Assembly (NCBI GenBank): GCA_947470895.1
Contig: CANIVF010000002.1
Coordinates: forward strand, 1 to 64,000
Origin: Bacteroidota bacterium
Lineage (GTDB): Bacteria; Bacteroidota; Bacteroidia; Cytophagales; Cyclobacteriaceae
Direction of reading: 5' to 3'
DNA length: 64,000 nucleotides
Shown: positions 11,577 to 58,600 of the stretch, piece by piece
Numbering within the stretch: position 1 is the stretch's first letter
How the letters are laid out: every line of letters begins with the position of its first letter
Made by a program: the position numbers and the translations under genes
The notes under the pieces: model-generated
Database searches by the model: none
Seen by the model: only the letters and a program-made list of their open reading frames with translations
What the model was told of the DNA's origin: nothing

Positions 11577-11951
11577 TTACTTCTTCAACAAGTCTCTGAT
11601 TTCGGTTAACAACTGAATGTCCGCAGGTGGTGCAGCCGGATCGGCAGGAGCAGCTTCCTCTTTCTTTTTCACGGAGTTAATTCCTTTTACAATCAAGAAA
11701 AGAACCAAAGCAATAATAACGAAGTTGATTAAGGCAGATAGAAACATACCATATTTGACAGCTCCAAAAACGGTTAAATCTTCGAGCCGCGTAAGATTAG
11801 CAGCTTCTAAAGCTGGCTTCAAAAGCAACGGAGTGATTACATCATTGATGAATGAACTTACAATAGCACCGAAGGCCCCGCCAATAATGACACCGACCGC
11901 TAGGTCAATTACGTTGCCACGCATGGCAAAAGCTTTAAATTCTTTTAGCAT
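11577..11951 (-). CDS. mscL: Large-conductance mechanosensitive channel MscL
   Basis: MLKEFKAFAMRGNVIDLAVGVIIGGAFGAIVSSFINDVITPL is the canonical MscL N-terminus. Confidence 0.95.
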   Translation of the reverse strand: MLKEFKAFAMRGNVIDLAVGVIIGGAFGAIVSSFINDVITPLLLKPALEAANLTRLEDLTVFGAVKYGMFLSALINFVIIALVLFLIVKGINSVKKKEEAAPADPAAPPADIQLLTEIRDLLKK

Positions 11952-12037: not shown

Positions 12038-12814
12038 CTACTTTAGAATCTGACCCTCTTCCAATAAAATAGCATATTTATACCCGGATCCAAAATCTTT
12101 GTTGAGCACGACTTTGCCAACCATAGTAACGGTATGCCCTTCGGGAATTAATACACTGCTGGTGATAACCAAATCATAATCGTCTTTGCTTCCGTCTTTA
12201 AGATGCATCCAATTACGACCCATGATGTTGGGATTGACCTTCGTGCACTGACCACTAATCTGAATCGTTTTTCCAGAATACTTTTGTGGGTTGGCTACAA
12301 GATCAGCAATTTTAACTGAGCCTTTCACAGCTAGGTTTCCAGCACTTTTAATGGTGACTGTCTTTGTTTCAACCTGTGAATTTTGTGAAGCATGATCGGC
12401 CTCTACGACAGAGGATACCAAATACATCTTTTCAAATACACGATTGTGCTCCTTGCTTTCAAAGTTTGTTTTCAGCAGGCCATCGCGGTAAAAATAGGTT
12501 CCACCAATAGTTACTTCCATTTTCGATGTAGCAATCCAGAATTCTTCCTGTCCCTCCTTCACCCGAAGATAAACATACCGTGTAGTAGGCAATGATTCCA
12601 GAATAGTAACGGTGTGTACATCTTCTACATTGACATTAGCCAGTTTGGGCAAATCGGTGAGTACTGGAAAAGGATTTTCTTGTGAAAGAATGCCGGTGCC
12701 CTCTGTGGCATTCTCAGAATTTGCAGTAATGACTTTGGGGTCTTTACTACAACTCATCACTATGATAGCAATACAGCTTAGTTGGATCAATCGTATGAGA
12801 TAATTTGTTTTCAT
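12038..12814 (-). CDS. Lipoprotein with OB-fold-like C-terminal domain, last gene of cytochrome cluster
   Basis: Lipobox (IVMSCSKD); OB-fold-like YSGKTIQISGQCTKVNPNIMGRNWMHLKDGSKDDYDLVIT...GHTVTMVGKVVLNKDFG. Confidence 0.6.
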   Translation of the reverse strand: MKTNYLIRLIQLSCIAIIVMSCSKDPKVITANSENATEGTGILSQENPFPVLTDLPKLANVNVEDVHTVTILESLPTTRYVYLRVKEGQEEFWIATSKMEVTIGGTYFYRDGLLKTNFESKEHNRVFEKMYLVSSVVEADHASQNSQVETKTVTIKSAGNLAVKGSVKIADLVANPQKYSGKTIQISGQCTKVNPNIMGRNWMHLKDGSKDDYDLVITSSVLIPEGHTVTMVGKVVLNKDFGSGYKYAILLEEGQILK

Positions 12815-12828
12815 TGACTTATTGTTTG

Positions 12829-14406
12829 TTAAAAGTTTTTACTAATCCTTGCGTTTACTCGATAGTTGTCCTCTTCAGATGACATGGTTGACAATTCACC
12901 TAAAACACTCAGGTTCATTTTTTTTGCTAACCGATAATTAAGGCTTGCACCATAGTACTGCTGACTATTCTTCATTTCGCGACTTGAATACGTGTAGTTC
13001 GCCATTCGATAATAAATATCCGCATCGAGTTTTTCTTTAATCAAAGATCTTGAATGCCTGAACGAGAAAATCTTACTTTCGAGATAAGATGATTTATTTT
13101 CATTGTAGTTGATAAACAACATTCCTCCCAGCCCGGGCACTTTTGACCAGTTGAAATAAGCATTCAGGTTGTCCGACACATTGAGGTTATTGCTTTGAAA
13201 TCGTCTGCTATAATTTGCTCCGATGTTGATAAACTTTATCGGCCGAAGGTTCAATCGGTACCTGATTCCCTGCCTGGCTTCATCATTATCCAGGATACGC
13301 TCTATTTCAGTTTTCAGAGTTTCGTAGTAAATAATCTGCTTGCGCGAATCATACGAAACATTAATGTCAATCCATTTCGCGAGTTGATATCCCATCGAAA
13401 CGTATAGATTGGTAAGCCTGATATCGCCCATCGAATCGGAATTCACCTTATTGTAAAGATCAAGCTCAAAGGATGAAAATAGAGTGAGCTTTTGGCCTAT
13501 GGTACTTGAGTGCTGAAAGTATCCATATCGTCTGTCTACGTTACCATTATTATCCTGTTCCATCACCCCAAGCGTGGTTTGCGAGTAGAGTGATTTGTTT
13601 TCTCCTTTCAAACCAATATAACCACCATATTGAGATAAATCGCGATTAAAAGTATAATCCACAATATCTGGCCTGTAGCCAACCAACATACCCATATAGA
13701 AATTCCCAAAATGCTTTTCGGCTTGTAGTCCGTCAATCGCCCCGAGGGATGATGCTTTAGGATTTATTTTTCTTCCTACCGAGATCGACATGGTGGGGCT
13801 TACATCAATTCGGATGGCCAGATTATAAATATTTAATACATCTTTATCCTTGATGTACGTACTATCCTTAATTCTAAATGTTTGTCTGTAATTAATATAC
13901 GTTTCCAGCGAAAATTTAGAATTATCAATATGGTTTGCATCCATAGAAAAACGATACATGGTTCTATGTATATCTCCCTGAATTGCTGAAAAACTACTAT
14001 AACTCGCTGCTGAAATTACTCCTCTTAAGGATTTGTTATTCCTTAACGGCAGCTTAGAAGTTATAGTGATTGTTGTGGTTTTCTTGACTTGTTCCTGAAC
14101 CACTTGTTTTTCGACCCGGGTTGTTTTATGAACGATATCGTCTCCTACTTTTACTTCACATCCTTTGATGAGTGATGCCACGCACGACATGGATGACTTG
14201 TTCTTTACAATCAAACAAGGGCTCTGGATTTTATTACGACTAACCATAAGGGTATCTCCGATCTCAACATTTTGCGTTGTTTCAAACTTGACATACGCAT
14301 TCGTGGAAGTAACAAAAGTCACTTTCCCTTGCAAAGGTGGTCTTTGACCAAAGCAGGTGCTTAACCTTAGATGCAAGATGAATAGTATGAGCAAGGTCCT
14401 TATCAT
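12829..14406 (-). CDS. Outer-membrane beta-barrel protein (candidate porin partner of the multiheme cytochromes)
   Basis: Signal peptide, many alternating amphipathic strands, C-terminal Phe (NARISKNF); start overlaps the upstream cytochrome stop (TAATG). Confidence 0.65.
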   Translation of the reverse strand: MIRTLLILFILHLRLSTCFGQRPPLQGKVTFVTSTNAYVKFETTQNVEIGDTLMVSRNKIQSPCLIVKNKSSMSCVASLIKGCEVKVGDDIVHKTTRVEKQVVQEQVKKTTTITITSKLPLRNNKSLRGVISAASYSSFSAIQGDIHRTMYRFSMDANHIDNSKFSLETYINYRQTFRIKDSTYIKDKDVLNIYNLAIRIDVSPTMSISVGRKINPKASSLGAIDGLQAEKHFGNFYMGMLVGYRPDIVDYTFNRDLSQYGGYIGLKGENKSLYSQTTLGVMEQDNNGNVDRRYGYFQHSSTIGQKLTLFSSFELDLYNKVNSDSMGDIRLTNLYVSMGYQLAKWIDINVSYDSRKQIIYYETLKTEIERILDNDEARQGIRYRLNLRPIKFINIGANYSRRFQSNNLNVSDNLNAYFNWSKVPGLGGMLFINYNENKSSYLESKIFSFRHSRSLIKEKLDADIYYRMANYTYSSREMKNSQQYYGASLNYRLAKKMNLSVLGELSTMSSEEDNYRVNARISKNF

Positions 14407-16742
14407 TATCTACTACCTCGTGGATGACAATTCAGGCACGCGTTGCTTGCATAGACATAACCATTCTCACCTTGGTGATCGCTATCAACCTTGGTCTTAT
14501 TATTATGTTGGTGGCAATCAATACAACTAAATACAGCATAGTTGCTGCTATTCGTATGACATTCTGTGCAAGACGTCCAGGCATCTTTGTGTCTTCCACT
14601 ATATATCGGAAAGTACATTCCATCATGATCGAAAGTTGCCGGAGTCCATGCCGTTTGGGTATGGCACTGCTTGCAATCATTAGGGAAATGTGCTGCCGTA
14701 TGATTCGGATTTGTAGTTGTATTGTAATCCGTTTGGTGACAACCCACGCATGTATTAGGTGTATTCACATACCCGGCAGCATGACACTGTACACAGTTGC
14801 TGGCAATCGTCTTATGCGCTTCCACCAATGGATAGATCGTGTTATGATCAAAATTAGAAGGGATCCATGCCGACTCGGTGTGACACTGTTTACAATCTGT
14901 AGGAAATAGTGCCGCTTTGTGATTAGGATTTGCAGTGGCGTTATAATCCGTCAAGTGACATCCCACGCAAGTGTTTGGTGTATTCACATAACCAGCAGCA
15001 TGACATTGCACACAATTTTTGGAAATAGATTGATGAGCTCCCCCTAAAGGATAGATGGTGTTATGATCAAAATTAGAAGGGATCCATGCTGACTCGGTAT
15101 GACATTGTTTACAGTCGGTAGGAAACTGAGCTGTCTTATGATTTGGATTTGCTGTGGTATTGTAATCCGTTAAGTGACATCCCACACACGTGTTGGGTGT
15201 ATTCAAATAACCAGCGGCATGGCATTGCACACAATTACTGGCAATGGGTTTATGAGCGCCTAGTAATGGATAGATCGTATTATGATCAAAACTTGATGGA
15301 GTCCATGCTGACTCGCTATGACATTGTTTACAATCAGTAGGAAACTGAGCTGTCTTATGATTCGGATTTGCTGTGGCATTGTAATCCGTTAAGTGACATC
15401 CCACGCAAGTATTGGGTGTATTCAGATAGCCAGCCGCATGGCATTCAACACAGTTATTCGCAATTGATTTATGTACACCTAATAAAGGGTAGACTGTGTT
15501 ATGATCAAAACTTGATGGCGTCCATGCCGACTCGGTATGGCATTGTTTACAATCATTCGAAAACTGAGCCGCTTTATGATTCGGATTTACTGTGGTATTG
15601 TAATCCGTTAAGTGACATCCCACACACGTGTTGGGTGTATTGACATAGCCAGCAGCATGACATTGAATGCATTCATTGGCAATTGATTTATGAGCACCCT
15701 GCAATGGATAAACCGTATTGTGGTCGAAATTTGATGGTGACCACGCAGACTCAGAATGACATTGTATACAGTCGGTATTGATTTGGGCTGTCTTGTGATT
15801 CGGTTTTACTGTAGTATTATAGTCCGTTAAATGACATCCTACGCATGTATTTGGTGTATTCACATAACCAGCAGCGTGACATTCAACACAGTTGTTAGCA
15901 ATTGATTTGTGAGCACCTTGCAAGGGGTAGATTTTGTTGTGATCAAAATTGGAAGGCGTCCATGCTTCGATGCTGTGACATTCTGTACAGGTTTTGGGAA
16001 AATTATTAATAGTATGATTAGGTTCTTTGGTAGCAGAATAGTCCATCAAATGGCAACTGGCACATTCTGGTGAAGCATCCGAATATTTACCAGTGACATG
16101 GCATTGTTTACAATCCTGTATGGCGTGGCCTAAGGTGAGCGGAAAAAAGTCATGATTGACGAGTTCTGAATTCCACCCATCCGAAGAAAAGGGATCATGA
16201 CATTCAGCACAATTAGTTGAATAACTTGCTTTTTGATGATCCGGTGTTTTTGTGTTTAAATAATCATCCCGATGACAATTAACACAATCATTTCCGATGC
16301 GATCAAACCTTAAGTTAGTCTCTGATACATGGCAATCCACACAACTCGGAGCAGTATGCGAACCCGCCAGCGGAAATCCATTGGCCTCGTGCAGTTCAGG
16401 AATGTTATCAACGATCCAGCTTTTGGGTGTATGGCATCGTGCACAATCATTTCCCACCGACATGCTATGAACATCGGTATGGCAATTAACACATTCTGCT
16501 GGCGCATTTGAAAAAACTAAGGAAGTATGACAAGCCTTACAATCGGTTTGCGAATGGTTTCCTACTAATGGAAAGGTGGTTGCATCATGATTGAAGTTCA
16601 GTTTTTTCCGAATGGGCAACCAGCCTGAAGAATAATGGCAACCAGCACAATCGATTTTGAGCGACTCGCCATGTGGCGATTGTGCGTAGGTCTGAATGAT
16701 AAAACCAAATAGAACAAGGATTATTGATGACAGTCTATACAT
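14406..16742 (-). CDS. Multiheme cytochrome c, 31 CxxCH motifs, with tandem triheme repeats
   Basis: 31 CxxCH motifs counted by hand in 778 aa; Sec signal peptide (MYRLSSIILVLFGFIIQTYAQ). Confidence 0.93.
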   Translation of the reverse strand: MYRLSSIILVLFGFIIQTYAQSPHGESLKIDCAGCHYSSGWLPIRKKLNFNHDATTFPLVGNHSQTDCKACHTSLVFSNAPAECVNCHTDVHSMSVGNDCARCHTPKSWIVDNIPELHEANGFPLAGSHTAPSCVDCHVSETNLRFDRIGNDCVNCHRDDYLNTKTPDHQKASYSTNCAECHDPFSSDGWNSELVNHDFFPLTLGHAIQDCKQCHVTGKYSDASPECASCHLMDYSATKEPNHTINNFPKTCTECHSIEAWTPSNFDHNKIYPLQGAHKSIANNCVECHAAGYVNTPNTCVGCHLTDYNTTVKPNHKTAQINTDCIQCHSESAWSPSNFDHNTVYPLQGAHKSIANECIQCHAAGYVNTPNTCVGCHLTDYNTTVNPNHKAAQFSNDCKQCHTESAWTPSSFDHNTVYPLLGVHKSIANNCVECHAAGYLNTPNTCVGCHLTDYNATANPNHKTAQFPTDCKQCHSESAWTPSSFDHNTIYPLLGAHKPIASNCVQCHAAGYLNTPNTCVGCHLTDYNTTANPNHKTAQFPTDCKQCHTESAWIPSNFDHNTIYPLGGAHQSISKNCVQCHAAGYVNTPNTCVGCHLTDYNATANPNHKAALFPTDCKQCHTESAWIPSNFDHNTIYPLVEAHKTIASNCVQCHAAGYVNTPNTCVGCHQTDYNTTTNPNHTAAHFPNDCKQCHTQTAWTPATFDHDGMYFPIYSGRHKDAWTSCTECHTNSSNYAVFSCIDCHQHNNKTKVDSDHQGENGYVYASNACLNCHPRGSR
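14661..15989 (-). repeat. Tandem repeat, 6 units of 219 bp (73 aa), inside the 31-heme cytochrome gene
   Basis: CVGCH codons at 14736, 14955, 15174, 15393, 15612 and 15831, i.e. exact 219-nt spacing; units read CVGCHxTDYNxTxxPNHKxAxFPTDCKQCHxESAWxPSxFDHNTxYPLxGAHxxIxxNCVxCHAAGYxNTPNT. Confidence 0.95.
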
Positions 16743-18310
16743 TGGAATTTGGTTATTTTATATTCTACTAAAATTTTTCCATCCTTCTCATACGGTTTAT
16801 GGCACTGGCGGCATTCTACCTTGGCATGCTTACCATCCAAAGGAAATTTTGTTTGGTTGTGATCAAACTTACTGGGGAACCAGGTTTCAGAATCATGGCA
16901 TCGAGTGCAATCCGTAGCGCCCTTCACCTCAAAACGATTACCGTGAATATTCTTGTGGCATTCAGTGCACGTTGAACTATTTTTTCTGAATGACCATCGA
17001 TCTTCACTTACATGACATGAAAAACACGGTGTAGCAGCATGAGCTCCCTGCAAAGGAAATTTTGTTTTCTGATGTTGATCGGCAGAATATGAGGTATGCT
17101 TAAAATCTTCAGCCAGGGAGTGACATTCGATACAATCAGGAGAAATTCCGTTCTTCAAAAATTCACCTTTGTGATAATCCTTATGACAGTTTTTGCATGC
17201 TGAGAAATTAATCGCTTCCGTATATTTTCCCTTATGACAAAGTTTACAATCCACGCCTACATGCTTTCCCACGAGAGGATAATCAGTTGCACTATGATTG
17301 AATGTATATAGTGATTTAATAGATTTGAAATCCGTTTCCACATGGCACTTTGCACACGTGTTACCCATCTTTCCTGTATGGATATCTTTATGGCATGCTA
17401 TACATTGAGTTTCTTCTACATTTGGCCAATAAGCAAAAGCCGTTGCAGCAGTGCTGGTGTTTTTATGACAACTGAAACAATGCACCGTTTTGTGCTTTCC
17501 CATCAAAGCAAAATCGGTAGTTGTGTGATCGAATCGATTCTTACCAATAAATTCCTTAAATGAATTTTCTGTATGACACTGTGTGCATTTGCCCTCGATG
17601 CGGCTCTTGTGTGGATCGGTGTGACAAGCCACACAATCGTTATGAGGAATATTGGTAAACTCTTGAAATTGCTTTCCGTTTCTTGTGATTGTCTTATGAC
17701 ATTCCTTGCAATCCACTTCAACATGTTTACCGCCAAGTTTAAACTTGGTCAGATTATGATCAAACTTTGAAGCCGGTTTAAAGGCTTTCATATCATGACA
17801 TTTAACACAATCATTGGATAACGTTTTTTGATGATAATCTTCATGGCAAGTGAGACACTCCTGTTTCAAACCCAGAAAAGTTTCCTTTTTCTTTTTAATC
17901 TCCTGGCTTTGAATATTGCCACTCTTATGGCATTCCCTGCACTCTACCGTGGCATGTGCACCTTCGAGTTTATATTGGGTGAGGGCATGGTTGAATTTCC
18001 TTTCATCAAATCGCACCATGTCAAATTTTATTCCATGATGCTCGCTGTGGCACGCAAAGCAATCTTTACCCTTTACGTCCACACTAACATGGTACCCCTT
18101 ATTGAGTTTGACCAGCGACTGAAGGTCTTTATGACAATCCAGGCATTTATTATTGTTTACCTTCTTTCCCAGGTCATGGCATAAGGTACACTTACTCATA
18201 CCTTCCAAATCGCTATGGGCCTGAGAGAGATCTCCAGGTGATAATTGTCCATAACTAATTGAATTTGCTAGTACCATTATACTTAATATAAATACCCACC
18301 TGAGTCTCAC
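16721..18310 (-). CDS. Multiheme cytochrome c, 20 CxxCH motifs
   Basis: 20 CxxCH motifs counted by hand in 529 aa; Sec signal peptide; 22-bp overlap with downstream cytochrome gene. Confidence 0.93.
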   Translation of the reverse strand: MRLRWVFILSIMVLANSISYGQLSPGDLSQAHSDLEGMSKCTLCHDLGKKVNNNKCLDCHKDLQSLVKLNKGYHVSVDVKGKDCFACHSEHHGIKFDMVRFDERKFNHALTQYKLEGAHATVECRECHKSGNIQSQEIKKKKETFLGLKQECLTCHEDYHQKTLSNDCVKCHDMKAFKPASKFDHNLTKFKLGGKHVEVDCKECHKTITRNGKQFQEFTNIPHNDCVACHTDPHKSRIEGKCTQCHTENSFKEFIGKNRFDHTTTDFALMGKHKTVHCFSCHKNTSTAATAFAYWPNVEETQCIACHKDIHTGKMGNTCAKCHVETDFKSIKSLYTFNHSATDYPLVGKHVGVDCKLCHKGKYTEAINFSACKNCHKDYHKGEFLKNGISPDCIECHSLAEDFKHTSYSADQHQKTKFPLQGAHAATPCFSCHVSEDRWSFRKNSSTCTECHKNIHGNRFEVKGATDCTRCHDSETWFPSKFDHNQTKFPLDGKHAKVECRQCHKPYEKDGKILVEYKITKFQCIDCHQ

Positions 18311-18316
18311 GGTCTG

Positions 18317-19660
18317 TTAATTATGCTTCTTCATAACGTGACCAAACCTTTTAGTAATTTCCACTCCAGCATTTTTAAGAAATTGCGTAGGCAATTCTCC
18401 TCCCGCAAAAATGTAAACCAGGTCATTTTCGAATTCCCTGATATCTTCATCAGCCTTTATTAAAATTGTTTTTTCACTAATAGAAACTAAATCTGAGTTA
18501 AACATCACCTGAAGTGATTTACTGGCGATAGCCTGCTCCACGTTCGCTTTGTTTTTAGGCTTTAGTCTTGAAAATTTATCACTTCGGTAAGATAGGATAA
18601 CGCTATTTTTATCATTCAAAAGCAAAGCCGATTCAATGGCTGAATCACCACCACCAACTACAACAACTTTTTTATTGGAGATTCTCTCTGGCTCCAGCAG
18701 TCGGTAAGCCACTTTTTGAAGATCTTCTCCTACAACATTTAACTTTCTAGGGCTTCCTCTCCGCCCGATTGCCAGAAGAACATTATTGGTTATGTATTCA
18801 TCACCAGTATTGGTTACAAGTTTAAAGGTTCCGTTGAGCAGCGGTTTAATGTCGTTTACCTTAGTGTGCTCTTTGATCTTAAGATCGTTTTCCGAAGTTA
18901 CCTTAGTCCACAAGCTGAGCAATTCGTCTTTTGTTGTATCGGTCAGTTTTATCTTGCCAAATAGTGGTAAATCCATAGGGGAAGTCATAACCACTTTAGT
19001 TCTTGGAAAAGTGTAGACTGTGCCACCGAGCGAATTTTGCTCTATCGTGATGCTTTTTAAACCATGTTTTTTTGCAGCCAGTGAGGCAGAGATTCCCGCT
19101 GGGCCAGCTCCGACAATAACCACATCAAGCACATTTTCTATATTTCGCTTTTTGCGCTTTATAATATTCTCTATGGCTTGCTGACCTTGCTCAACGCTGT
19201 TCTTAATCAATCCCATTCCACCTAATTCTCCTGCGATATAGATGCCTTGTATATTGGTTTCAAAATTCTTATTTACATGAGGCAAGTCAACACCCCTCGA
19301 TTCTGTTCCAATACGCAATGAAATAGCCTCCACAGGACAGGCGTGAAAACAAGCACCGTGACCAACACAATTTGAAGCATTGATTACTGTTACCTTGCCT
19401 TCGTTCAATCCTAAAATATCCTTTTCAGGGCAGGCCGTTATGCAGGCCGCACTTCCTATACAGGTGTTGAGATCAATATAGGGATGAAGCGAAACTGGTT
19501 CGAATAATCCTTCTGCTTTAGCAACAGAAACTTTTTGTCTTGTCTTCGCTGTCTTCGCCTTATCGTTCCTTAAATAGAAGTATACCACTACCGCGCACAG
19601 TAGAGCCAGAGTTCCGTAAATTAATATTTGCTCTATCAGTACTTCCATCAGAATATCCAT
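18317..19660 (-). CDS. Membrane-anchored NAD(P)/FAD-dependent oxidoreductase with ferredoxin-type 4Fe-4S domain
   Basis: N-terminal TM helix; CIGSAACITACP and CVGHGACFHACP; two Rossmann motifs (VVIVGAGPAGISASLAAKKHG, VVVVGGGDSAIESALLL). Confidence 0.85.
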   Translation of the reverse strand: MDILMEVLIEQILIYGTLALLCAVVVYFYLRNDKAKTAKTRQKVSVAKAEGLFEPVSLHPYIDLNTCIGSAACITACPEKDILGLNEGKVTVINASNCVGHGACFHACPVEAISLRIGTESRGVDLPHVNKNFETNIQGIYIAGELGGMGLIKNSVEQGQQAIENIIKRKKRNIENVLDVVIVGAGPAGISASLAAKKHGLKSITIEQNSLGGTVYTFPRTKVVMTSPMDLPLFGKIKLTDTTKDELLSLWTKVTSENDLKIKEHTKVNDIKPLLNGTFKLVTNTGDEYITNNVLLAIGRRGSPRKLNVVGEDLQKVAYRLLEPERISNKKVVVVGGGDSAIESALLLNDKNSVILSYRSDKFSRLKPKNKANVEQAIASKSLQVMFNSDLVSISEKTILIKADEDIREFENDLVYIFAGGELPTQFLKNAGVEITKRFGHVMKKHN

Positions 19661-20502
19661 TTATATCCAAATGACAACGTGACCACCACGTGTACGATCA
19701 GAACTATTGCCATAATCAATGCAAAAGGTAAATGAGCAACATGCCAATACCTGAAAAGCTTCTGCATCGTCTGTAATCGTCTTATCTTATAAGCAAGTGA
19801 AATCTCTTCCTTAAGCAATTTCATAATGGACAACCTCTGCTTCTTTTCAACCTTCCGTTTCGATAACTCTTTGCTTATTGTTCTTATTGTTCTCTTGTTT
19901 TCAAAATATTGAGAAAAGAATGAAGTCTTTTCGGAGGAATCATGAACAGAAGTAAAAGAGAGAATCAGACCTCTGAGATGTTCATCGATAACGCTATTTT
20001 TTAAAGTAGCTGATAACCCTGCCTTCATACCCTTTACTTCATTGAGTGTAAGTTCCCTTCCCTCGATGGTGCGTGGTATTTGTATATACACAAATCTTCC
20101 AATGACACCACTCAACACAACAGCCACCATACTCCAGAATGAAATCGAAACTATTCCTCCAAACTTAAACGCAGTGTGAAAAAGAACCAAAACAGGACCG
20201 AGCGTACAGAGGAAAATATGAAATTCCAGGAGGTATTTTAATCGTATTCCTTTTAGCAACAAATTGTATCGCTTTCTGGCGATATAAATAAAGACGCCAA
20301 TCAATATCAAAATTGTACCTGCAATACCAAGGCCGTGACCAAACACACCGCTTGGTCTAAACCAGTTGTGCTGAGGGTGATAAAATCTTTCCTCTATTGA
20401 AATAGTATAATAAGAATATCCTGTATATGCCAGGTAGGCTGTTACCGCCAATACGATGAGCACCATGGTAGCTATATAAAGGGTATGAACCGTTTTATTC
20501 AT
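19648..20502 (-). CDS. Membrane protein, candidate diheme cytochrome b
   Basis: Multi-TM; two histidine pairs 14 residues apart: FHIFLCTLGPVLVLFH and AHLPFALIMAIVLIVH. Start overlaps oxidoreductase ORF by 13 bp. Confidence 0.6.
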   Translation of the reverse strand: MNKTVHTLYIATMVLIVLAVTAYLAYTGYSYYTISIEERFYHPQHNWFRPSGVFGHGLGIAGTILILIGVFIYIARKRYNLLLKGIRLKYLLEFHIFLCTLGPVLVLFHTAFKFGGIVSISFWSMVAVVLSGVIGRFVYIQIPRTIEGRELTLNEVKGMKAGLSATLKNSVIDEHLRGLILSFTSVHDSSEKTSFFSQYFENKRTIRTISKELSKRKVEKKQRLSIMKLLKEEISLAYKIRRLQTMQKLFRYWHVAHLPFALIMAIVLIVHVVVTLSFGYKWIF

Positions 20503-20518
20503 TGCGAGATGCCGAGGT

Positions 20519-23500
20519 TTAGTTGAATATGTTAAACTTTCGTTTCTTTATAAATGCCAGCACACTAATAATCAAAAGTGCTGTGATAACTATATAGATC
20601 CATTGCGGTATAGGCACCGGATCGCCAGCAGCATAGGAGTGCAATCCAGACAAGTAATAGTTGACTCCATAGTACGTCATGATGACCGATGCTAGTCCAA
20701 AAATTGTTGCAAAATTATAGGAGAAAAGGCCTTGCATTTTGGGTATGATCCGCATATGAAGGATAAATGCATAAACGAGTATAGTTACCAGTGCCCATGT
20801 TTCTTTGGCATCCCATCCCCAATACCTTCCCCACGATTCATTAGCCCAAACCCCACCCAGATAAGTTCCAATACTAATCATGAACAGACCACCAATCAAG
20901 GTCATTTCACTGAGGTACGACATCTCCCTGATCTGATTATGTATTCTCTCTTTATTCTTTTCGTTGATAAATATCATGAGTATTAGATTGATCAGCCCTA
21001 TAATGGCTCCCAACATCAGAAAACCATAACTACCAGCTTCCAACGATACGTGAATGGTTAACCAATACGATTTAAGTACAGGTACAAGAGGAGTAATTTC
21101 CGGATCCATGTAACTTAAGATCGCAACGAGTAACACGGTGGCCGACAAAATCATGGTAGCGGCCAATCCTCCAAAAGATTTTCTGGCAAATATTACTCCC
21201 GCCATAACCGTTGTCCATGCAATATAGATCATCGATTCATACCCGTTGCTCCAGGGTGCTCGTTCAGACACATACCATCGCAAGCCAAGACCGATCGTGT
21301 GCAATACAAAGGCAATCAGTACCAGACCAAACAATATTATATTCGTCCTAGCTAACTTAAACTCCGGCCTAAACACGGAGAAAAAGAGAAAGAACACCAG
21401 AGCCACTCCTAACAGGGTATACAGCACTGCCAGCCGATTGAAAAGATTGATCCTATTGAGTAAAATTTCTGCGCTGATCCTCGAAGAAGAAGGTATAACC
21501 TCTGCACCCGTTGACTTTTGATACGCTGCCAATTCGGTAACCATTGTTGAAGGCCGTGTGTAGTTTTTGGTAACGGTAGCCTCATTAAGTGCAGATCTGT
21601 ATGATTCAAAAAACTTTGTTGCCAAAGAAGGTTCGGTGTTTTCTTCCTGGTCATGATTATGGTCTGAAGGATGAATGGCCGTCCAGGTATTATTGGGATC
21701 ACCTGCAACAGGAACCATTTTGAACAAAGTGCCTGCAAATACCATATTCGCGATGTTCACCCTTTCGTCAATTTTCATCAGCTCCTTTTCATAAACACCC
21801 CGATCGATCGGCTGTAGACTGTATGCCCGCCTTACTTCATCCTGCAAAAGATACTCTCCGCTTTCTGAAAAAAAATCTTTGTACGCAGCCGTCTCTTGTG
21901 AAACTCCCATTAGTTTATGAATCGCTTCATGCTTACCTATGCTGATCAGATTCACTCCAATCCATTCTTGCGTATTGGAAAACATTCCTAACAACACCTG
22001 ATCAGCGTTCAGGCCATTCAGGTTTTCCTTGCGGGACAGTTTTCTCATTACTTCTCTGGATAACGTGTGAACTGGTTTCATTCGCCCGTTAAGATCCTGA
22101 ACGATGAGCTTACTGAAAGCTTCAGCATGTTCCTTATCAACCGTATTTTGAAAATTACTCTCCCCGATTGTTTTTTGTGCTGAAGTTAATGTTGGTGCAC
22201 TAAGAAGAAGTCCCACTACGATGATGGATAAACTACCCTTTGCCCTTAATTTCTTAATACTTTGAGAAATCTGATAAAATCTACTTTTTTTACTTAAGAG
22301 TGACATAACCATTCCAATAGTCAGGAGTGCATAGCCTAAGTAAGAAATCCATGAACCCCAAAAATCATGATTCACGCTGAGGTAAGTTCCCAACTCATCA
22401 TTGTCAAATGACGATTGAAAAAACCGATATCCATCATGAGTCAATATATGATTCATATAAATGCGATGATTCTCGGTAAGATTTTCCCGATTGTCTATCA
22501 ATTGTACTTCGCTGGCGTAAGAGGCCGCACTGTTGGTTCCCGGGTACCGCTCCATGATGAAATCATACAGCTTGACAGAGAAAGGCAGCGTCATATGTTT
22601 TGCACCATAAGAAATTGCCAATTCCAAAGCATCATGCGTTAGCACTACAGGTTGGCCGTGCAGTCCTTTTGCTCCGTAGATATAGATCATATCTGATTTT
22701 CCATTGATGGAGACCGTGGCTTTAAGAGCTGTCATACTTTCGCTCTTGACTTTTGCACTCTCTGATTTGATACTCACACTGCCTTGCTTGGTAAAATCGC
22801 CAAATACGAAACTGGTAATACCATCGGTATATAATGATCGTAACTTCAATTCATGATACGCATTGGCAGGCAGAGTTTCTCTTGTTTGGGTAGCCATAAC
22901 CGTTTGGGTCAGCTCACGAGAGGACTTTATGAGCAGAGAATCATTTTTGTAAGCAATCGTTACAGCATCCGGGACTTGGTCATCACTGAAATTAAAAATT
23001 ACATCACGGATTTCACGGGTTTCACCCTGACGTACAAAGTATTCCTCTCTTCCTCCATCACCTCCAAATACCACTTTAATGGTTGCCTGACCGCCTGTGC
23101 CTGCATCTAAAACCTGTATGGGGTTTGGAATAAACTCAACGATTTGGACATTAATCAAATCATTTCCGATCAAATAGGATTCGTTCCACTGATTATTTCC
23201 CAGTGACGCAAAAAGTACAGGCTCGTCAAACTCATAGATTTGACCACCTTTATAAACCTTAAATTGCAAGTAGGTATCAGACGATAAAAAACTATTGGAA
23301 ACATCGTTCTCCCTGATGTGCATGATGCCCTCAAAGCCAAAATAACGAGTAACACCTGCACCAATAAGGATGCCAATCATGGCAGCATGGAACGTCAGCA
23401 ATGCCCATTTTTTATGCTCTATCATTCTGAATTTGAATAAATTAACAATGACGGTACCACTGAATAGTGCGAGTAACGTAGTAAACCACCATGTTTTATA

Positions 23501-23653
23501 AATGATTTTCTGTGCGGAACTTGTACCAAAATCATTTTCTATAAATGTGCCTACCGCAATGGCAATCGCAAAAGAAAGGATATAAAAGCCGGCAGCACGT
23601 GTATTAAAAAGTTTGCTTAGCCATTTTTTCGAGAAGTCAAAAAGCTGCGTCAT
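20519..23653 (-). CDS. ccsBA: Cytochrome c synthase, ResB/CcsB-CcsA fusion (system II)
   Basis: 1044 aa; ResB-like N-terminus; CcsA-type WGRYWGWDAKETWALVTILVYAFILHMR WWD-like motif. Confidence 0.88.
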   Translation of the reverse strand: MTQLFDFSKKWLSKLFNTRAAGFYILSFAIAIAVGTFIENDFGTSSAQKIIYKTWWFTTLLALFSGTVIVNLFKFRMIEHKKWALLTFHAAMIGILIGAGVTRYFGFEGIMHIRENDVSNSFLSSDTYLQFKVYKGGQIYEFDEPVLFASLGNNQWNESYLIGNDLINVQIVEFIPNPIQVLDAGTGGQATIKVVFGGDGGREEYFVRQGETREIRDVIFNFSDDQVPDAVTIAYKNDSLLIKSSRELTQTVMATQTRETLPANAYHELKLRSLYTDGITSFVFGDFTKQGSVSIKSESAKVKSESMTALKATVSINGKSDMIYIYGAKGLHGQPVVLTHDALELAISYGAKHMTLPFSVKLYDFIMERYPGTNSAASYASEVQLIDNRENLTENHRIYMNHILTHDGYRFFQSSFDNDELGTYLSVNHDFWGSWISYLGYALLTIGMVMSLLSKKSRFYQISQSIKKLRAKGSLSIIVVGLLLSAPTLTSAQKTIGESNFQNTVDKEHAEAFSKLIVQDLNGRMKPVHTLSREVMRKLSRKENLNGLNADQVLLGMFSNTQEWIGVNLISIGKHEAIHKLMGVSQETAAYKDFFSESGEYLLQDEVRRAYSLQPIDRGVYEKELMKIDERVNIANMVFAGTLFKMVPVAGDPNNTWTAIHPSDHNHDQEENTEPSLATKFFESYRSALNEATVTKNYTRPSTMVTELAAYQKSTGAEVIPSSSRISAEILLNRINLFNRLAVLYTLLGVALVFFLFFSVFRPEFKLARTNIILFGLVLIAFVLHTIGLGLRWYVSERAPWSNGYESMIYIAWTTVMAGVIFARKSFGGLAATMILSATVLLVAILSYMDPEITPLVPVLKSYWLTIHVSLEAGSYGFLMLGAIIGLINLILMIFINEKNKERIHNQIREMSYLSEMTLIGGLFMISIGTYLGGVWANESWGRYWGWDAKETWALVTILVYAFILHMRIIPKMQGLFSYNFATIFGLASVIMTYYGVNYYLSGLHSYAAGDPVPIPQWIYIVITALLIISVLAFIKKRKFNIFN

Positions 23654-24071: not shown

Positions 24072-24890
24072 CTACTTCATCACTACCTTTAATTGATTTC
24101 TCAGGCCGCTAAAACTGATCAACTCAACACCCGTGCTACCGATAAACATTTTGGCCTGTATCCTTACCGGTATCTTATTTTTATCATCCGAAAGCCAGCA
24201 TGTAATCGAATTTTCACCATCAAAAATTTTATTGTCTGGCATAATCGGCACCAATTTAAAGCATGGTATAATTCCGATACTGGTTTCTACTTTCTCTTTG
24301 CCTGAATAGATGATCTTCAAGTTATAGGGAGTATCTTCAAAAAAACCAGAAATGGATAGTGTGTCACCTTTCTTATATTTTGCAAAGTCAATAACACGTA
24401 AGTAAAGAAATCCTGCCACCATATCACGCACGTTAGGCGGAGTAGGATAAAATTTAGGTTCTCCATACAAACCTGTCTCTTTATTCATGACTTTAACTTC
24501 TGCTTCAAGTTTGTCGTGGTCATAATAGATGATTTCGTCTTTTCTGTAATTACCCTCCCTGATCTTTCTGTAGGATACATGGGTAACCAAAGCAGCCGTA
24601 TCGATATAGGCTCCCCAGGTATCATTTACTTTTGTTATCCAGGAAACAAACCCCAGCGTTTCGCCATGGGCATCGACCTTATAGGATGGCCGTGAGTTTA
24701 TATTGTAGATTTTTTGATCAACTACGGTTGATGCTTTGCCTACGGTGAAGAATCCAAAGTTAACTCGATAGTTAAGCACCTCCCCGATTCCAAAATTAGT
24801 GTTCTTGATCGGAATGAATTCTTTCTTTTTCTCACCTGAAAAAGAAGCGAGAAACAACAGCATCAGGAATGCTTTAAACAGAAGTTTCAT
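24072..24890 (-). CDS. DUF3108 domain-containing protein
   Basis: FGIGEVLNYRVNFGFFTVGKASTVVD...GLKFY/PTPPNVRDMVAGFLYLR pattern typical of DUF3108. Confidence 0.75.
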   Translation of the reverse strand: MKLLFKAFLMLLFLASFSGEKKKEFIPIKNTNFGIGEVLNYRVNFGFFTVGKASTVVDQKIYNINSRPSYKVDAHGETLGFVSWITKVNDTWGAYIDTAALVTHVSYRKIREGNYRKDEIIYYDHDKLEAEVKVMNKETGLYGEPKFYPTPPNVRDMVAGFLYLRVIDFAKYKKGDTLSISGFFEDTPYNLKIIYSGKEKVETSIGIIPCFKLVPIMPDNKIFDGENSITCWLSDDKNKIPVRIQAKMFIGSTGVELISFSGLRNQLKVVMK

Positions 24891-26943: not shown

Positions 26944-27597
26944 ATGCTAAGTCTTACTGAAGAAAACTACCTCAAGGCCATCTACCATCTTTCGGATGGT
27001 GGTTCAAAAGCTGTGCTCACTAACGAACTGGCAGAAGCCATGAACACCAAGGCTGCCTCTGCCACCGATATGATTAAAAAATTGTCGGCCAAGGAATTTA
27101 TCAGTTATGAAAAATACTATGGCGTCAATGTTACCCACAAAGGAAAAGTAGAAGCCCTGATGGTGATTCGCAAGCATCGACTTTGGGAAACCTTTCTGGT
27201 GGATAAGCTTGGCTTCAACTGGGACGAAGTGCATGAAGTAGCTGAGCAACTGGAACACATCAACTCATCGCGACTGATTGAAAAGCTGGATGAGTTCCTT
27301 GGGTACCCCAAAGTTGATCCACACGGAGATCCCATCCCCGACAACAAAGGAAAAATCAAGGCGCAACCACAGTTACCATTAGATCAATTAAAGAAAGGAT
27401 ACCTGGGAAAGATTGCAGCTGTTAAAGATTCTGATTCGAATCTCTTAAAATACCTCGACAAGATTGGAGCGAAACCTGGAACAAAAATCAAGATTCTTGG
27501 CAAAGAAGATTATGATGATTCGATGGAGGTTCTAATCGATGATCACCGCGTTTTCATCTCAAAAGAAGTGTCACAAAATATTTTAGTCTCCGAATAA
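26944..27597 (+). CDS. mntR: DtxR/MntR-family metal-dependent transcriptional regulator
   Basis: MLSLTEENYLKAIYHLSDGG...; HRLWETFLVDKLGFNWDEVHEVAEQLEHI metal-binding/dimerization region. Confidence 0.9.
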   Translation: MLSLTEENYLKAIYHLSDGGSKAVLTNELAEAMNTKAASATDMIKKLSAKEFISYEKYYGVNVTHKGKVEALMVIRKHRLWETFLVDKLGFNWDEVHEVAEQLEHINSSRLIEKLDEFLGYPKVDPHGDPIPDNKGKIKAQPQLPLDQLKKGYLGKIAAVKDSDSNLLKYLDKIGAKPGTKIKILGKEDYDDSMEVLIDDHRVFISKEVSQNILVSE

Positions 27598-27598
27598 T

Positions 27599-29497
27599 AT
27601 GAGGAAACATGATGTTTCAAGAAAATCATTAAGCGAAGTACATGCTTCAGTGGATGCCACCAATCGCAAAGGCTGGCGAAAATTGTTTGCTTTTTTAGGA
27701 CCTGCCTACCTGATCAGCGTAGGTTATATGGACCCTGGCAATTGGGCAACCGATATCGCAGGAGGAAGTCAGTTTGGTTATTCCCTCATTTGGGTGCTGC
27801 TAATGTCAAACCTCATGGCTTTGGTTTTACAAAGTCTTAGTGCACGGCTAGGATTAGTGCGTCAGTTAGATCTGGCACAAGCATCAAGAACTTCTTATCA
27901 TCCCGTTGTCAATTTTTGTTTATGGATACTCGCTGAAATCGCGATTGCAGCAACTGACCTGGCTGAAGTATTAGGAATGGCCATCGGCTTACAGCTACTA
28001 TTTGGTCTTCCATTGATTTGGGGAGTTTCATTAACAGTACTAGACACCTTACTGCTGCTGGTGCTTCAAAGCTATGGCATGCGAAAAATTGAAGCCTTTA
28101 TCGTAGCCTTGGTTTCCATCATCGGAATATCGTTTTTGATGGAAATGTTTTGGGCCAAACCCGATATGGGTGAGTTAGTAAAAGGATTTATTCCCTCACT
28201 GCCCAACGATACCGCACTCTATATTGCTATTGGTATCATTGGCGCTACCGTAATGCCACACAACCTCTACCTGCATTCATCGTTAGTTCAAACCCGCAGA
28301 ATTGACTCCAGCGAAAAAGGAGTATGGAGTGCTATCAAGTATAACCTGATCGATTCTACTATTGCACTCAACGCAGCCTTCTTTGTAAACTCGGCCATAC
28401 TTGTGCTGGCAGCATCCACGTTTTTCAGGGTCGGCATGTACGAGGTTTCTGATATTCAGGATGCGTATAAATTCCTATCTCCCATATTAGGTAATGAGTG
28501 GGGCTCTATCATGTTTGGCGTTGCTTTAATTGCAGCAGGACAAAGTTCTACCATAACCGGAACACTCGCAGGGCAAATCGTTATGGAAGGATATCTCAAT
28601 CTTCGTATTGCTCCCTGGCTACGCAGACTTATCACCCGTCTCATTGCCATCATTCCCGCTTATATCGTCATCCTCATGTATGGAGAGGGAAAAACCGGTG
28701 AACTGTTAGTGCTTAGTCAAGTGGTGCTTAGTCTCCAACTAGGTTTTGCGATCATTCCATTGATTCATTTCACTAGCGACAAAGAAAAGATGGGAGTATT
28801 TGTGATCAGGCCCTGGATGAAAATCGCAGCCTGGACCATCGCCATTATTATCGTTTCACTCAATGCAAAATTGGTCATGAATGAGATTTCAGGTTGGCTC
28901 GTGGTGGCCGGAGATCGCGCCTGGATAGTTTGGCTCACAGTCATTCCGGTTTGCCTCGGTGCTGGTATATTGTTGTTATACATCTCTTTCAAGCCATGGT
29001 TGGATAGAAGAAGAAACGAAAAAACAGCGCGTGCTCCACACGGATCGGCTGCAGAACTGATCAGCTTAACTAAAACAACGTACCATCAAATTGCCGTCAC
29101 TATTGATTTTAGTTCCATCGATTCACTAGCCATTCGCAGTGCTGTATCACAGGGAGGCAAGAGTGCCCACTATTTGTTGGTGCATATTGTGGAAACTGCC
29201 GGAGCTATGTGGTATGGAAGTGAAATAGCCGACCACGAGTCAGACGCAGATGCAAGCGCTCTTTCAAGCTATAGAACACAATTGAGAGAACAAGGGTATG
29301 ATGCTGAAATAAAAATTGGGTTTGGAAATCCCAAGCAAGTAATCCCGGAAATCGTGAACGAATTTGATGCCAATCTGCTCGTGATGGGTGCACATGGCCA
29401 CAAGTGGATGAAAGATCTTGTGTTCGGAACAACGGTGGACACCGTTCGTCACCGGGTGAAAATACCAGTGCTCATCGTACGAGATGCCGCGGAATGA
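27599..29497 (+). CDS. mntH: Nramp-family divalent metal transporter fused to C-terminal UspA-like domain
   Basis: Nramp motif GYMDPGNWATDIAGG and VMPHNLYLHSSLVQTR; C-terminal LLVMGAHGHKWMKDLVFGTTVDTVRHRVKIPVLIV is Usp-like. Confidence 0.92.
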   Translation: MRKHDVSRKSLSEVHASVDATNRKGWRKLFAFLGPAYLISVGYMDPGNWATDIAGGSQFGYSLIWVLLMSNLMALVLQSLSARLGLVRQLDLAQASRTSYHPVVNFCLWILAEIAIAATDLAEVLGMAIGLQLLFGLPLIWGVSLTVLDTLLLLVLQSYGMRKIEAFIVALVSIIGISFLMEMFWAKPDMGELVKGFIPSLPNDTALYIAIGIIGATVMPHNLYLHSSLVQTRRIDSSEKGVWSAIKYNLIDSTIALNAAFFVNSAILVLAASTFFRVGMYEVSDIQDAYKFLSPILGNEWGSIMFGVALIAAGQSSTITGTLAGQIVMEGYLNLRIAPWLRRLITRLIAIIPAYIVILMYGEGKTGELLVLSQVVLSLQLGFAIIPLIHFTSDKEKMGVFVIRPWMKIAAWTIAIIIVSLNAKLVMNEISGWLVVAGDRAWIVWLTVIPVCLGAGILLLYISFKPWLDRRRNEKTARAPHGSAAELISLTKTTYHQIAVTIDFSSIDSLAIRSAVSQGGKSAHYLLVHIVETAGAMWYGSEIADHESDADASALSSYRTQLREQGYDAEIKIGFGNPKQVIPEIVNEFDANLLVMGAHGHKWMKDLVFGTTVDTVRHRVKIPVLIVRDAAE

Positions 29498-55609: not shown

Positions 55610-58600
55610 TCAGCGAAACCAAATCAGTTTTCCAGTACTGATCGAATCTATTTCTCCGCTCTTTATGTGAAGACGGTAGATATAAACTCCATTATTCAGA
55701 GTTTTGCCTGAAGCGTCTGTACCATTCCAGATGATTTCATTGGTGCCAATGTAAAACCTCTGAACATTCTCTATATCAAATCTGGACACCAATTGACCAG
55801 TAGAAGAAAATACCTCCAGTAAAAATTCATCTGGCAACGTGTTTCCCGAAAGTTTAAAGTTGAAAAAAAATCCAACCGATGATGGATTGGGATACACTCC
55901 ATTGAAATTTAGTGTCGTCTCTGATTTTACATGAAATGAAATTTCGTAAGGATCTATCCCACTCAAATTTCCGCTGGCGTCTTTTGCCTCAACAGAAAGA
56001 ACATATTCGCCATCAATCAAATCGGTGGGACTAAAATCAACCCGAAAATCATAAGTGAGCATTGCTGGAGACCAACTTATCGAGCTATTGCTAAAATAGA
56101 TTGGCTTAAACGGGCAGTCATTTGCATTACAGGGATAACTCAGAAATATTTTCATACCAAGTGTATCCGTTTTCAGCAGGAATCTATTCTCATCTTTTAA
56201 AGTCATCTGAATGGACGTAGTAGAAGAAACAAAATCTCCATTTCGGATTTCGCGTCCATCAAAAGTGACTTCCAGGATTGGGTTAGTTTTGTCCGGTTTC
56301 ACAATCAAGTAATCAGGTAGATTGGCAAAATTATTATCGTAGTATAGCTCAGGTACTTCTTTCCTGTTTACATAAACATTGACATCATTAATGCCGGCCT
56401 TTCCCACAGTATTAGAGTGAACATTAAAGAATGTTGTTTGCCCTGGCAAGGGAGCTGTAATTAAAGAGTCCTTCTGTAGACGTTGTTGGGTTTCCTGTGT
56501 AACTACTTCTAGTTCTACCTTTAACGGAATAGTAAAATCCTTGGCCGACACATTGGTAAAACCAAATTGGATGCTCCAGGATTGACCTTCCTGCACACTT
56601 TTAGTTTGATATAGGCCATCATAAAAAAGAACACCTTCTGGTACAGGTTCATACAATACAATCCAATTTTTCCAATCGGCCGGAGTAAGATTGATTTCAT
56701 CTTTTGCATCATACACCAGTCGCAGATAAGGAACTTGCGAGGTAGATAAGTTGGATAAATCAAAGCCACTTGTTGCGTTATCGGAAATCAATGTTTCTTC
56801 GCCTTTACTATCCACTCCATAAATAAAAAAAACAGCTTGATCCGATGATTCCAATGTCGGAGTCAATGAATAGAATGCATCCCATCTTTTGGCGGGACCA
56901 ATCAACTCTGATTTCATGATGCCCTCTGCCCTTCTTCCCGTTAGTTCTTTGGCTACAAAAAGTAATTGTTCGTTTGCAGGAGATAGAGACGATCGGAAAA
57001 CTTTTGCTGAACCGGGTGAAGCACCTTTTTTTCCGAAGATGATAACAGGCTCACCTGCCTCTAACGAGTTCAACTCAGTCAAACCTATTCCGAGTTCGCT
57101 AAGTTTTGCTTTTACAGAGGAAGACCAACCGAAATAGTCCGGGTCACCAATGGAAAATAGTACTATTGAATCGCTTGTTCCAACGGCATTCACCCATGCA
57201 GATAAATCATCATCCAAACCCGTTTCCAATTCTGATGCTGTAAAGCTATTGATTATTTGAGGCTCGCGACCACAGGTGCGTGGATCTTGAAAATTGAAAG
57301 GTAATCCGGCATAAGGTACTACTGTTACCTTGTTGAAGGCAATAAAATTTAGTGTGTTGTTGCGACAGGGTTGGTTTTGTGTGCCCAGATTATATTCTGA
57401 CCCATTAATCTTGACTGAGACATCGGTATCCGGAAGAGGGTTGTTTATTCCAAACGTTGCAATCTCTAATGAAGTCTTCGTCTCTTCAAATCGAAAAGGT
57501 TTACCTTCTCCATCACTGACTAATCCGCTGAAGAAATTCTCGGTTGTCTGGTCCTTTCTCAACTGTGCCCAACCTTCATCACCATTTTTAATGTAAGAGA
57601 ATGAGGATACACTCCAATCCGTACTCTCACCAGAAATTGGTTGATCAAATTGAGTGCGCCAATAATATACGGTGGAGTCTTGCTTCAATAACTCAATAGT
57701 GGTTTTAGCAAGAACTTTTCCAGAGACAAGCTTTTCCTTTTTAAAGGGACTGGTAAATGATAATGTGGTATCGATTTCAAGTTTAAAGTCTCGGGTAACA
57801 GATAGCGGATCGCTGGACTGCCAAATGAAATTCACCGATGTTTTACTTTCAATCCCAAAAGCGGCAGGGAAAAGATTTAATGTGGCGCTGGAAGAGAATG
57901 ATTGCGAAAGAATCGCCTGATTATTCTCTTCATTTCTTTCTTTGATTTTATAATCCGGGTCAATCTTAACCAGGAATGTGTTATCACCAGAGCCATCTTC
58001 TATACCACGATAAATTTTAAAAAGCAGTGTATCTTCATGAAGCAAAGGTAAATACGTTGAGTCGTAGGTAGCTGTTGATCCATCTTTGAATGTGCGATTT
58101 ACGCTTACTTTAACTGATGAATTTTTTACCAATCCGATATTGCGAATTCCAATTTGTATAGCAAATGAATTGGTAAGGGCGGTTATCGGCTTGCCATCGA
58201 GTGGAATTAAGCGAAGTGACGAATTGGTGATTTCATAATCGGGATCATTACTTTGAAATAACCTAACGGCCGGATCTCCGAGCAATACCATTTGCTGCAC
58301 TTGAGTAATATTCGAAATACTGGCTGAGGCCCCCTGCATATATTGTCGTGCTACTTCCTTTTGCAAATCACCCACACCCTTTTTTACGAATACTGAATCA
58401 GCAAAACCAATTCGATAAAAGTAATCGGAATAACTGCGCAACGTAGAAACAAAACCAAAGGAACTGTGCGCAATGAAATTTCTTGCACCACGATTGGACA
58501 CTGCAATCCAATCTTCGCCAAAGTTGACTTCATTATTGAAAAAATTGCCGGCATTGCATCCATTTATTAACATGACCGGATATTTGCCTGAATTATTGTA

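Follow-up and report, generated by a model that had tools for sequence, protein, structure and literature searches.

Porin-cytochrome conduits of the PCC3 kind were described as assemblies of a porin, two very heme-rich cytochromes (medians of 34 and 21 hemes) and an inner-membrane protein of approximately 300 amino acids, in which WX3HX13H motifs occupy helices 3 and 5 and an SGXXG motif occupies helix 4 (He et al., 2017; PMC5566968). They were first described in Fe(II) oxidisers and proposed for Fe(II) oxidation (PMC5566968), and they have been predicted in Sideroxydans, Leptothrix and other Proteobacteria (PMC5566968; Gallionellaceae pangenome, PMC10734462). Unclassified porin-cytochrome clusters have also been noted in the Bacteroidota, specifically novel conduits in Bacteroidetes metagenome-assembled genomes (PMC6344600) and a cluster in the anode-enriched Bacteroidetes_1 (PMC8258643), and the potential of this phylum for extracellular electron transfer (EET) is therefore not new as such. 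Here, seven adjacent genes are analyzed that lie within a 64,000-nucleotide stretch of DNA from a Bacteroidota bacterium of the family Cyclobacteriaceae (GenBank assembly GCA_947470895.1, contig CANIVF010000002.1, positions 1 to 64,000; hereafter the window), and that probably constitute a horizontally mobile, self-contained conduit of the PCC3 kind carrying electrons across both membranes.

All seven open reading frames are located on the minus strand, are free of internal stops and encode, in ascending coordinates, a lipoprotein, an outer-membrane beta-barrel, a 31-heme cytochrome (hereafter the wire), a 20-heme cytochrome, an NAD(P)H flavoenzyme, a cytochrome b-like protein and CcsBA. The original prediction, made from the letters of the window, had described them as close-packed genes, and recomputation returned identical coordinates and junctions (14, -1, -22, 6, -13 and 16 bp from lipoprotein to ccsBA). 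Equally reproducible were its counts of 31 and 20 CXXCH motifs, against which shuffled proteins reach at most 3 and 2. Its proposal of a single module, whose redox parts would sit in the inner membrane, the periplasm and the outer membrane and which has a dedicated heme-attachment protein, is backed by synteny that is conserved in relatives across the Bacteroidota, Ignavibacteriota and Rhodothermota. No Bacteroidetes-type promoter (TTG-N17-23-TANNTTTG) was found upstream of ccsBA.

Judged from sequence comparison, the module is a Bacteroidota version of a PCC3-like conduit, because of the motifs of its cytochrome b, the proteobacterial loci in which that family occurs, and the profile alignment of its barrel with porins. 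Specifically, the predicted di-heme cytochrome b-like inner-membrane protein (284 amino acids; 19648..20502, minus strand) resembles the protein of about 300 amino acids of PCC3 and has two HX13H motifs (H95/H109 and H257/H271) and SGXXG at position 131 (S131-G132-x2-G135) at matching places, all of them invariant across phyla. The tryptophan of the second motif is intact (W253-x3-H257), and the one preceding the first motif is replaced by leucine in the window and present in most relatives. These conserved bis-histidine motifs support the earlier cytochrome b assignment; convincing Pfam matches were found neither for this protein nor for the barrel and the lipoprotein, no PDB match was found for the cytochrome b, and Pfam hints within its family consist of a DUF4405 tail match and Ferric_reduct in one homologue. 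In Gallionella, Methylotenera, Thiodiazotropha and others, family members are encoded beside genes for a 21- or 24-heme cytochrome, a long-heme cytochrome and a large porin, and it is through the Gallionella and Methylotenera homologous loci, rather than the named genes Slit_0867-0870 and Slit_1446-1449, that the comparison with PCC3 was made. Additional likenesses are a periplasmic multiheme (20 hemes here, median 21 in PCC3), a long repeat multiheme (31 hemes, median 34) and a porin of the same family. The latter, the predicted outer-membrane beta-barrel (525 amino acids; 12829..14406, minus strand), has a signal peptide, a small N-terminal beta domain (approximately residues 25-93) and about 22 strands; its confident AlphaFold2 model (mean pLDDT 83.9, 22 long strands by our own count) upholds the barrel assignment. 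Alignment with the PCC3-like porins of the proteobacterial homologous clusters (hhalign 96.2%, E 2.6e-9, 384 columns) indicates remote homology. Foldseek returned ushers and porins at TM-scores of 0.55 or less and no informative relative.

Two parts of the original prediction do not survive this comparison. That no related conduit was known is contradicted by the homologous cytochrome b, multihemes and barrel of proteobacterial PCC3-like loci, and a module confined to the Bacteroidota is contradicted by the occurrence of the FAD enzyme, cytochrome b and multihemes in the Pseudomonadota, Myxococcota, Nitrospirota, Acidobacteriota and others. A match with an already characterised complex is borne out in part, in that the genes match PCC3, a system described by prediction rather than by biochemistry (PMC5566968).

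The locus differs from PCC3 as described in its periplasmic heme count (20 or 23 rather than 21 or 24), in a wire whose heme number is strictly 3n+1, in the presence of CcsBA and a lipoprotein in the operon, and in a linked flavoenzyme that goes unmentioned in the main text of He et al. (2017), in which the words FAD and ferredoxin do not occur (PMC5566968). Compared with MtrCAB, MtoAB and PioAB, a periplasmic multiheme, a barrel and an outer multiheme would work similarly, but those systems are decaheme with an MtrB-family porin, whereas 20 and 31 hemes are present here. Membership of the MtrCAB type was rejected, as the DmsE family model TIGR03508 gave 19.9 and 40.4 bits against a cut-off of 192.2 and no MtrB Pfam match was found on the barrel. 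Likewise, no OmbB model (from the OmbB-OmaB-OmcB conduit of Geobacter) matched the barrel in Pfam or NCBIfam, the two proteins not having been compared directly. The triheme c7 'nanowire' cytochromes of Geobacter (TIGR04257) share the chain of triheme c7-type units; however, the 20-heme protein scores 33.2 bits against a cut-off of 40, the wire has no listed match, and the present genes form a porin-cytochrome operon with a single-heme cap. The seven-gene cluster of Bacteroidetes_1, compared by description only, comprises six multihemes and one barrel, with neither an FAD enzyme nor CcsBA described (PMC8258643). In the literature on PCC3 and on Bacteroidota clusters, no link of PCC3 to the Bacteroidota and no account of the flavoenzyme, CcsBA or the 3n+1 rule was found, though these may be published nonetheless.

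Both the wire (778 amino acids; 14406..16742, minus strand) and the 20-heme, presumably periplasmic, cytochrome (529 amino acids; 16721..18310, minus strand) begin with a signal peptide and consist of cytochrome c7/c3 repeats in Pfam; besides these two, the only other Cytochrome C7-type match found in the genome is one protein associated with alternative complex III (ACIII). The wire is composed of ten triheme units and one last heme (31 = 3x10+1) with a core period of 73 amino acids, or 219 bp in the DNA, and six of its triheme units are 71-90% identical in protein; a 219-bp tandem array of 6 copies lies within the gene (14645..15965). Wires of this family have about 25 amino acids per heme, as expected of wires. 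Among the 54 second-position cytochromes of the Bacteroidota group that are not interrupted by a contig end, 49 have 3n+1 CXXCH motifs (10, 13, 16 ... 64, 70), a result unchanged by the two near-duplicate records and one probably unrelated multiheme pair that this set includes. Three exceptions are mended by CX3CH or CX4CH motifs at the expected places (21 becoming 22, 30 becoming 31 and 32 becoming 34), and those remaining consist of a frame split in halves (15+16=31) and a broken frame at a contig edge. Chance is rejected as an explanation for 49 of 54 (binomial p ~2e-18), a value to be taken as indicative, since the set contains related sequences, a few duplicates and one unrelated multiheme pair. 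In other phyla, wire heme counts modulo 3 are evenly spread (6/6/6). Furthermore, wires of 31 and 43 hemes occur in a pair of genomes whose FAD enzymes are 98% identical, so that wire length appears to change fast but by whole units. Taken together, these patterns indicate that the wire evolves by gain and loss of whole 73-amino-acid triheme units capped by one heme. For the first-position cytochrome, the counts in the Bacteroidota group are 20 or 23, apart from two lower ones, one of which stems from a broken frame; in other phyla, 21 or 24 hemes predominate. Separately, a PorU-like large protein encoded in the window (55610-60562) makes a type IX secretion system likely in this organism; by eye, the wire has no recognisable C-terminal domain of that system.

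The flavoenzyme (447 amino acids; 18317..19660, minus strand) was correctly called an FAD/FeS enzyme, as Pfam detects Fer4 (4Fe-4S) and Pyr_redox domains. A long N-terminal helix in its AlphaFold2 model (mean pLDDT 90.5) is predicted to span and anchor it in the inner membrane, and two iron-sulphur motifs follow, C67-x2-S-x2-C73-x3-C77 and C98-x2-H101-x2-C104-x3-C108. C67, C73, C77, C98, H101, C104 and C108 are common to fifty members across phyla, which have Ser, Cys or Thr at position 70, with Gly in a single case. The invariant histidine of the second motif may ligate an iron-sulphur cluster. Also invariant among the 50 members are Arg359 and Arg365, which we take to stand at the place of the NADPH-phosphate-binding arginines of thioredoxin reductase (TrxR). 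In both sequence and Foldseek comparisons, the C-terminal part groups with YpdA and TrxR-like ferredoxin-NADP reductases (FNR), with YpdA and then FNR as the best Foldseek matches. When aligned by hidden Markov model to two solved YpdA sequences, the last FAD-binding segment matches residues that precede the Rossmann motif rather than follow it. Consistent with this finding, the core alone scores 155.3 bits against the YpdA model and matches 265 of its 316 positions, and with residues 120-171 transferred to the C-terminus it scores 168.8 bits and matches 310; nothing is gained when the segment is reversed, and models of TrxR, AhpF, glutathione reductase and MerA extend likewise on rotation. 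These results support a circular permutation of the FAD-NAD(P) domain. The likeness to YpdA (TIGR04018) is one of the FAD/NAD(P) domain, at 165 bits and below the equivalog cut-off of 339.9, and the enzyme differs from YpdA and TrxR-like FNR in having an N-terminal transmembrane helix, a ferredoxin domain and the FAD-binding C-terminal segment ahead of the Rossmann fold. It is not a thiol reductase, because no CXXC dithiol occurs in the FAD domain of the 50 members; together with the permuted order, this rules out thioredoxin or bacillithiol reductase activity.

CcsBA (1044 amino acids; 20519..23653, minus strand), a System II heme lyase/exporter fusion, matches both ResB and Cytochrom_C_asm above the Pfam cut-offs, in agreement with its original assignment, and TIGR03144 at 176 bits, just below the cut-off of 187.6. 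Genes of the Ccm System I (ccmB, ccmC, ccmE and ccmF) lie on another contig of the genome, for which reason CcsBA would represent an additional maturation system and is unlikely to serve mere housekeeping. No second full-length CcsBA was found in this genome; the Flavobacteriaceae carriers tested have a second one elsewhere in theirs. The lipoprotein (258 amino acids; 12038..12814, minus strand) was predicted to have an OB-fold. Its lipoprotein nature is sustained by an invariant lipobox cysteine (Cys22), and the N-terminal part gives a GW/SH3-like match; an OB-fold is no more than a possibility for the C-terminal part, being weakly hinted in single members (E 0.03-0.04). No PDB match was found for this protein.

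In the window, the seven genes fill exactly the interval between mscL (11577..11951, minus strand) and a gene for a DUF3108-like protein (24072..24890, minus strand), which form the left and right boundaries of the block and lie outside the module. In seven congeneric genomes (L191-L196, L198), mscL adjoins the DUF3108 gene with approximately 60-100 bp between them, and parC, parE, HADH, dapD and their neighbours are collinear with the window wherever the compared stretch reaches; an eighth congener (L197) has about 1.7 kb of other sequence at this site. Because the block is precisely the segment missing in congeners, the boundaries of the cluster are real, and the empty site indicates the gain or loss, as a unit, of approximately 12 kb. 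One further genome of the genus was seen with the module (G022, FAD enzyme 74% identical). In the tree of FAD enzymes, the window and G022 are nested among Flavobacteriaceae sequences (SH-aLRT 95), and a carrier near those sequences, G192, has the window's class in common but not its order. Horizontal acquisition is the simplest reading of these data, with moderate support from the tree. Further along the window, a transporter of the NRAMP type (MntH-like), which carries a universal-stress-protein-like domain at its C-terminus (27599-29497), adjoins a DtxR/MntR-like regulator (26944-27597), as read from their sequences.

Matches to the cytochrome b were obtained in 48 of 398 genomes of the phylum, and at 57 of the 80 best FAD-enzyme loci a cytochrome b and a large multiheme are also present within about 10 kb. 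Two gene orders recur: cytochrome b, an optional tetratricopeptide repeat (TPR) protein, FAD enzyme, 20-heme cytochrome, wire and barrel, or cytochrome b, 20-heme cytochrome, wire, barrel and FAD enzyme. The full seven-gene set occurs in Emticicia, where the order is exactly that of the window, and in Arenibacter, Yeosuana, Saprospiraceae and Flavobacteriales. Named carriers include Yeosuana marina, Arenibacter, Thermobacterium salinum and Emticicia aquatica, and carrier groups include the Saprospiraceae, Bacteroidales, Ignavibacteriales and Rhodothermia. The lipoprotein and CcsBA accompany the module mainly in Flavobacteriaceae, Saprospiraceae and Emticicia, the lipoprotein being found with it only in Bacteroidia lineages. 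In Ignavibacteria and Rhodothermia loci (L054, L055, L070, L072), a membrane-anchored TPR protein between cytochrome b and the next gene takes the place of CcsBA; the CcmH/CycH TPR model weakly matches some of these proteins, which suggests an apocytochrome chaperone. In four loci (L104, L105, L109, L114), another cytochrome gene of the wire type, encoding 13 to at least 50 hemes, lies close to the barrel gene or follows it. In addition, a barrel-less two-gene module, composed of a short cytochrome b relative (186-199 amino acids) and a 10-12-heme cytochrome, is present at L086:8660-10137, at L087:8202-9792 and in L114 downstream of the PCC3-like cluster, and resembles the porin-less pairs of multiheme and inner-membrane protein of He et al. 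(2017).

Beyond gene content, homology, motifs, the repeat rule and the block insertion, which are read from the sequence itself, we infer the membrane sidedness, the cofactors, which multiheme lies outside, and the electron path. CcsBA would attach hemes to both apo-multihemes. The FAD/FeS enzyme, held by one helix at the cytoplasmic face, would take hydride from NAD(P)H, and its ferredoxin-like domain would relay electrons one at a time to the di-heme cytochrome b, for which exchange with menaquinone is a further possibility. From cytochrome b, electrons would enter the 20-heme periplasmic wire; the 22-strand barrel would hold the junction across the outer membrane, and the 31-heme protein would extend the wire outward to an extracellular acceptor such as Fe/Mn oxides, humics or partner cells.

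Several points weigh against this proposal. The wire has a signal peptide and neither a lipobox nor any other known surface anchor, and its extracellular place is therefore argued by analogy only. The first iron-sulphur motif is short of one cysteine in the window's lineage (Ser), and the coupling of the FAD enzyme to cytochrome b rests on gene linkage. At 525 amino acids and about 22 strands, the barrel is smaller than most PCC3 porins, for which up to 42 strands are predicted; as the large porin is a descriptive rather than a defining trait, the label 'PCC3-like' is used here. Lastly, PCC3 function has been called untested (PMC12442390), and both PCC3 clusters of Sideroxydans ES-1 are down-regulated on Fe(II) (PMC8788666). 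The missing anchor would also suit a respiratory complex confined to the periplasm, with the barrel an unrelated porin, but this is very unlikely given that almost every complete locus of the Bacteroidota group has the barrel gene after the wire gene and that the barrel is homologous to proteobacterial PCC3-like porins. The multihemes could alternatively act as an electron store or sink (a capacitor) or in the detoxification of metals or reactive oxygen species, the barrel serving for export or anchoring rather than respiration. A capacitor role has been proposed for PCC3 (PMC10734462), and a wire whose heme number varies as widely among close relatives as in the 31- and 43-heme pair accords with it; however, the conserved neighbourhood of genes for a cytochrome b and an NAD(P)H enzyme implies that electrons flow continuously, and this explanation is regarded as improbable.

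The direction of flow, which we lean towards placing outward, is the weaker part of the conduit proposal. Were the same conduit run inward, electrons donated outside the cell by Fe(II), reduced humics, a partner or a cathode would pass along the wire and cytochrome b to menaquinone and the oxidase, and the FAD enzyme would make NADPH from low-potential electrons. The Fe(II) oxidisers in which PCC3 was first described (PMC5566968) and the FAD enzyme in Gallionella and Nitrospira loci speak for such a course, yet the response of ES-1 to Fe(II) (PMC8788666) speaks against it. An ACIII-like cluster with cytochrome oxidase genes in this genome is compatible with inward flow, but no RuBisCO large subunit was found in the genome, a combination that fits a heterotroph with surplus reductant. 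Moreover, NADP+ reduction from such donors would be uphill, and many carriers are Flavobacteriaceae and Saprospiraceae, which are generally heterotrophs. Inward flow is consequently considered unlikely.

If the conduit proposal is true, predicted PCC3 conduits extend over the Bacteroidota, Ignavibacteriota and Rhodothermota and include named isolates (Arenibacter, Yeosuana, Emticicia, Thermobacterium), so that PCC3 function could be tested in organisms other than fastidious iron oxidisers. The NAD(P)H flavoenzyme linked to the conduit suggests a point at which electrons may pass into or out of the cytosol. For bioelectronics and for studies of how conduction depends on length, the 3n+1 rule would provide a natural length series of protein wires that runs from 10 to 70 hemes, each step being one 73-residue module, and the empty site implies that the whole capability can come or go as a single 12-kb block. 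It is possible, and we put this forward tentatively, that these genes represent a mobile and complete EET cassette wired into the NAD(P)H pool, and not only into quinol, by way of a circularly permuted ferredoxin-flavoenzyme that is new to the literature and carries a His-ligated iron-sulphur cluster, with a wire length set in quanta of three hemes. Such a cassette may let otherwise ordinary aerobic Bacteroidota, including cultured marine Flavobacteriaceae, respire outside the cell.

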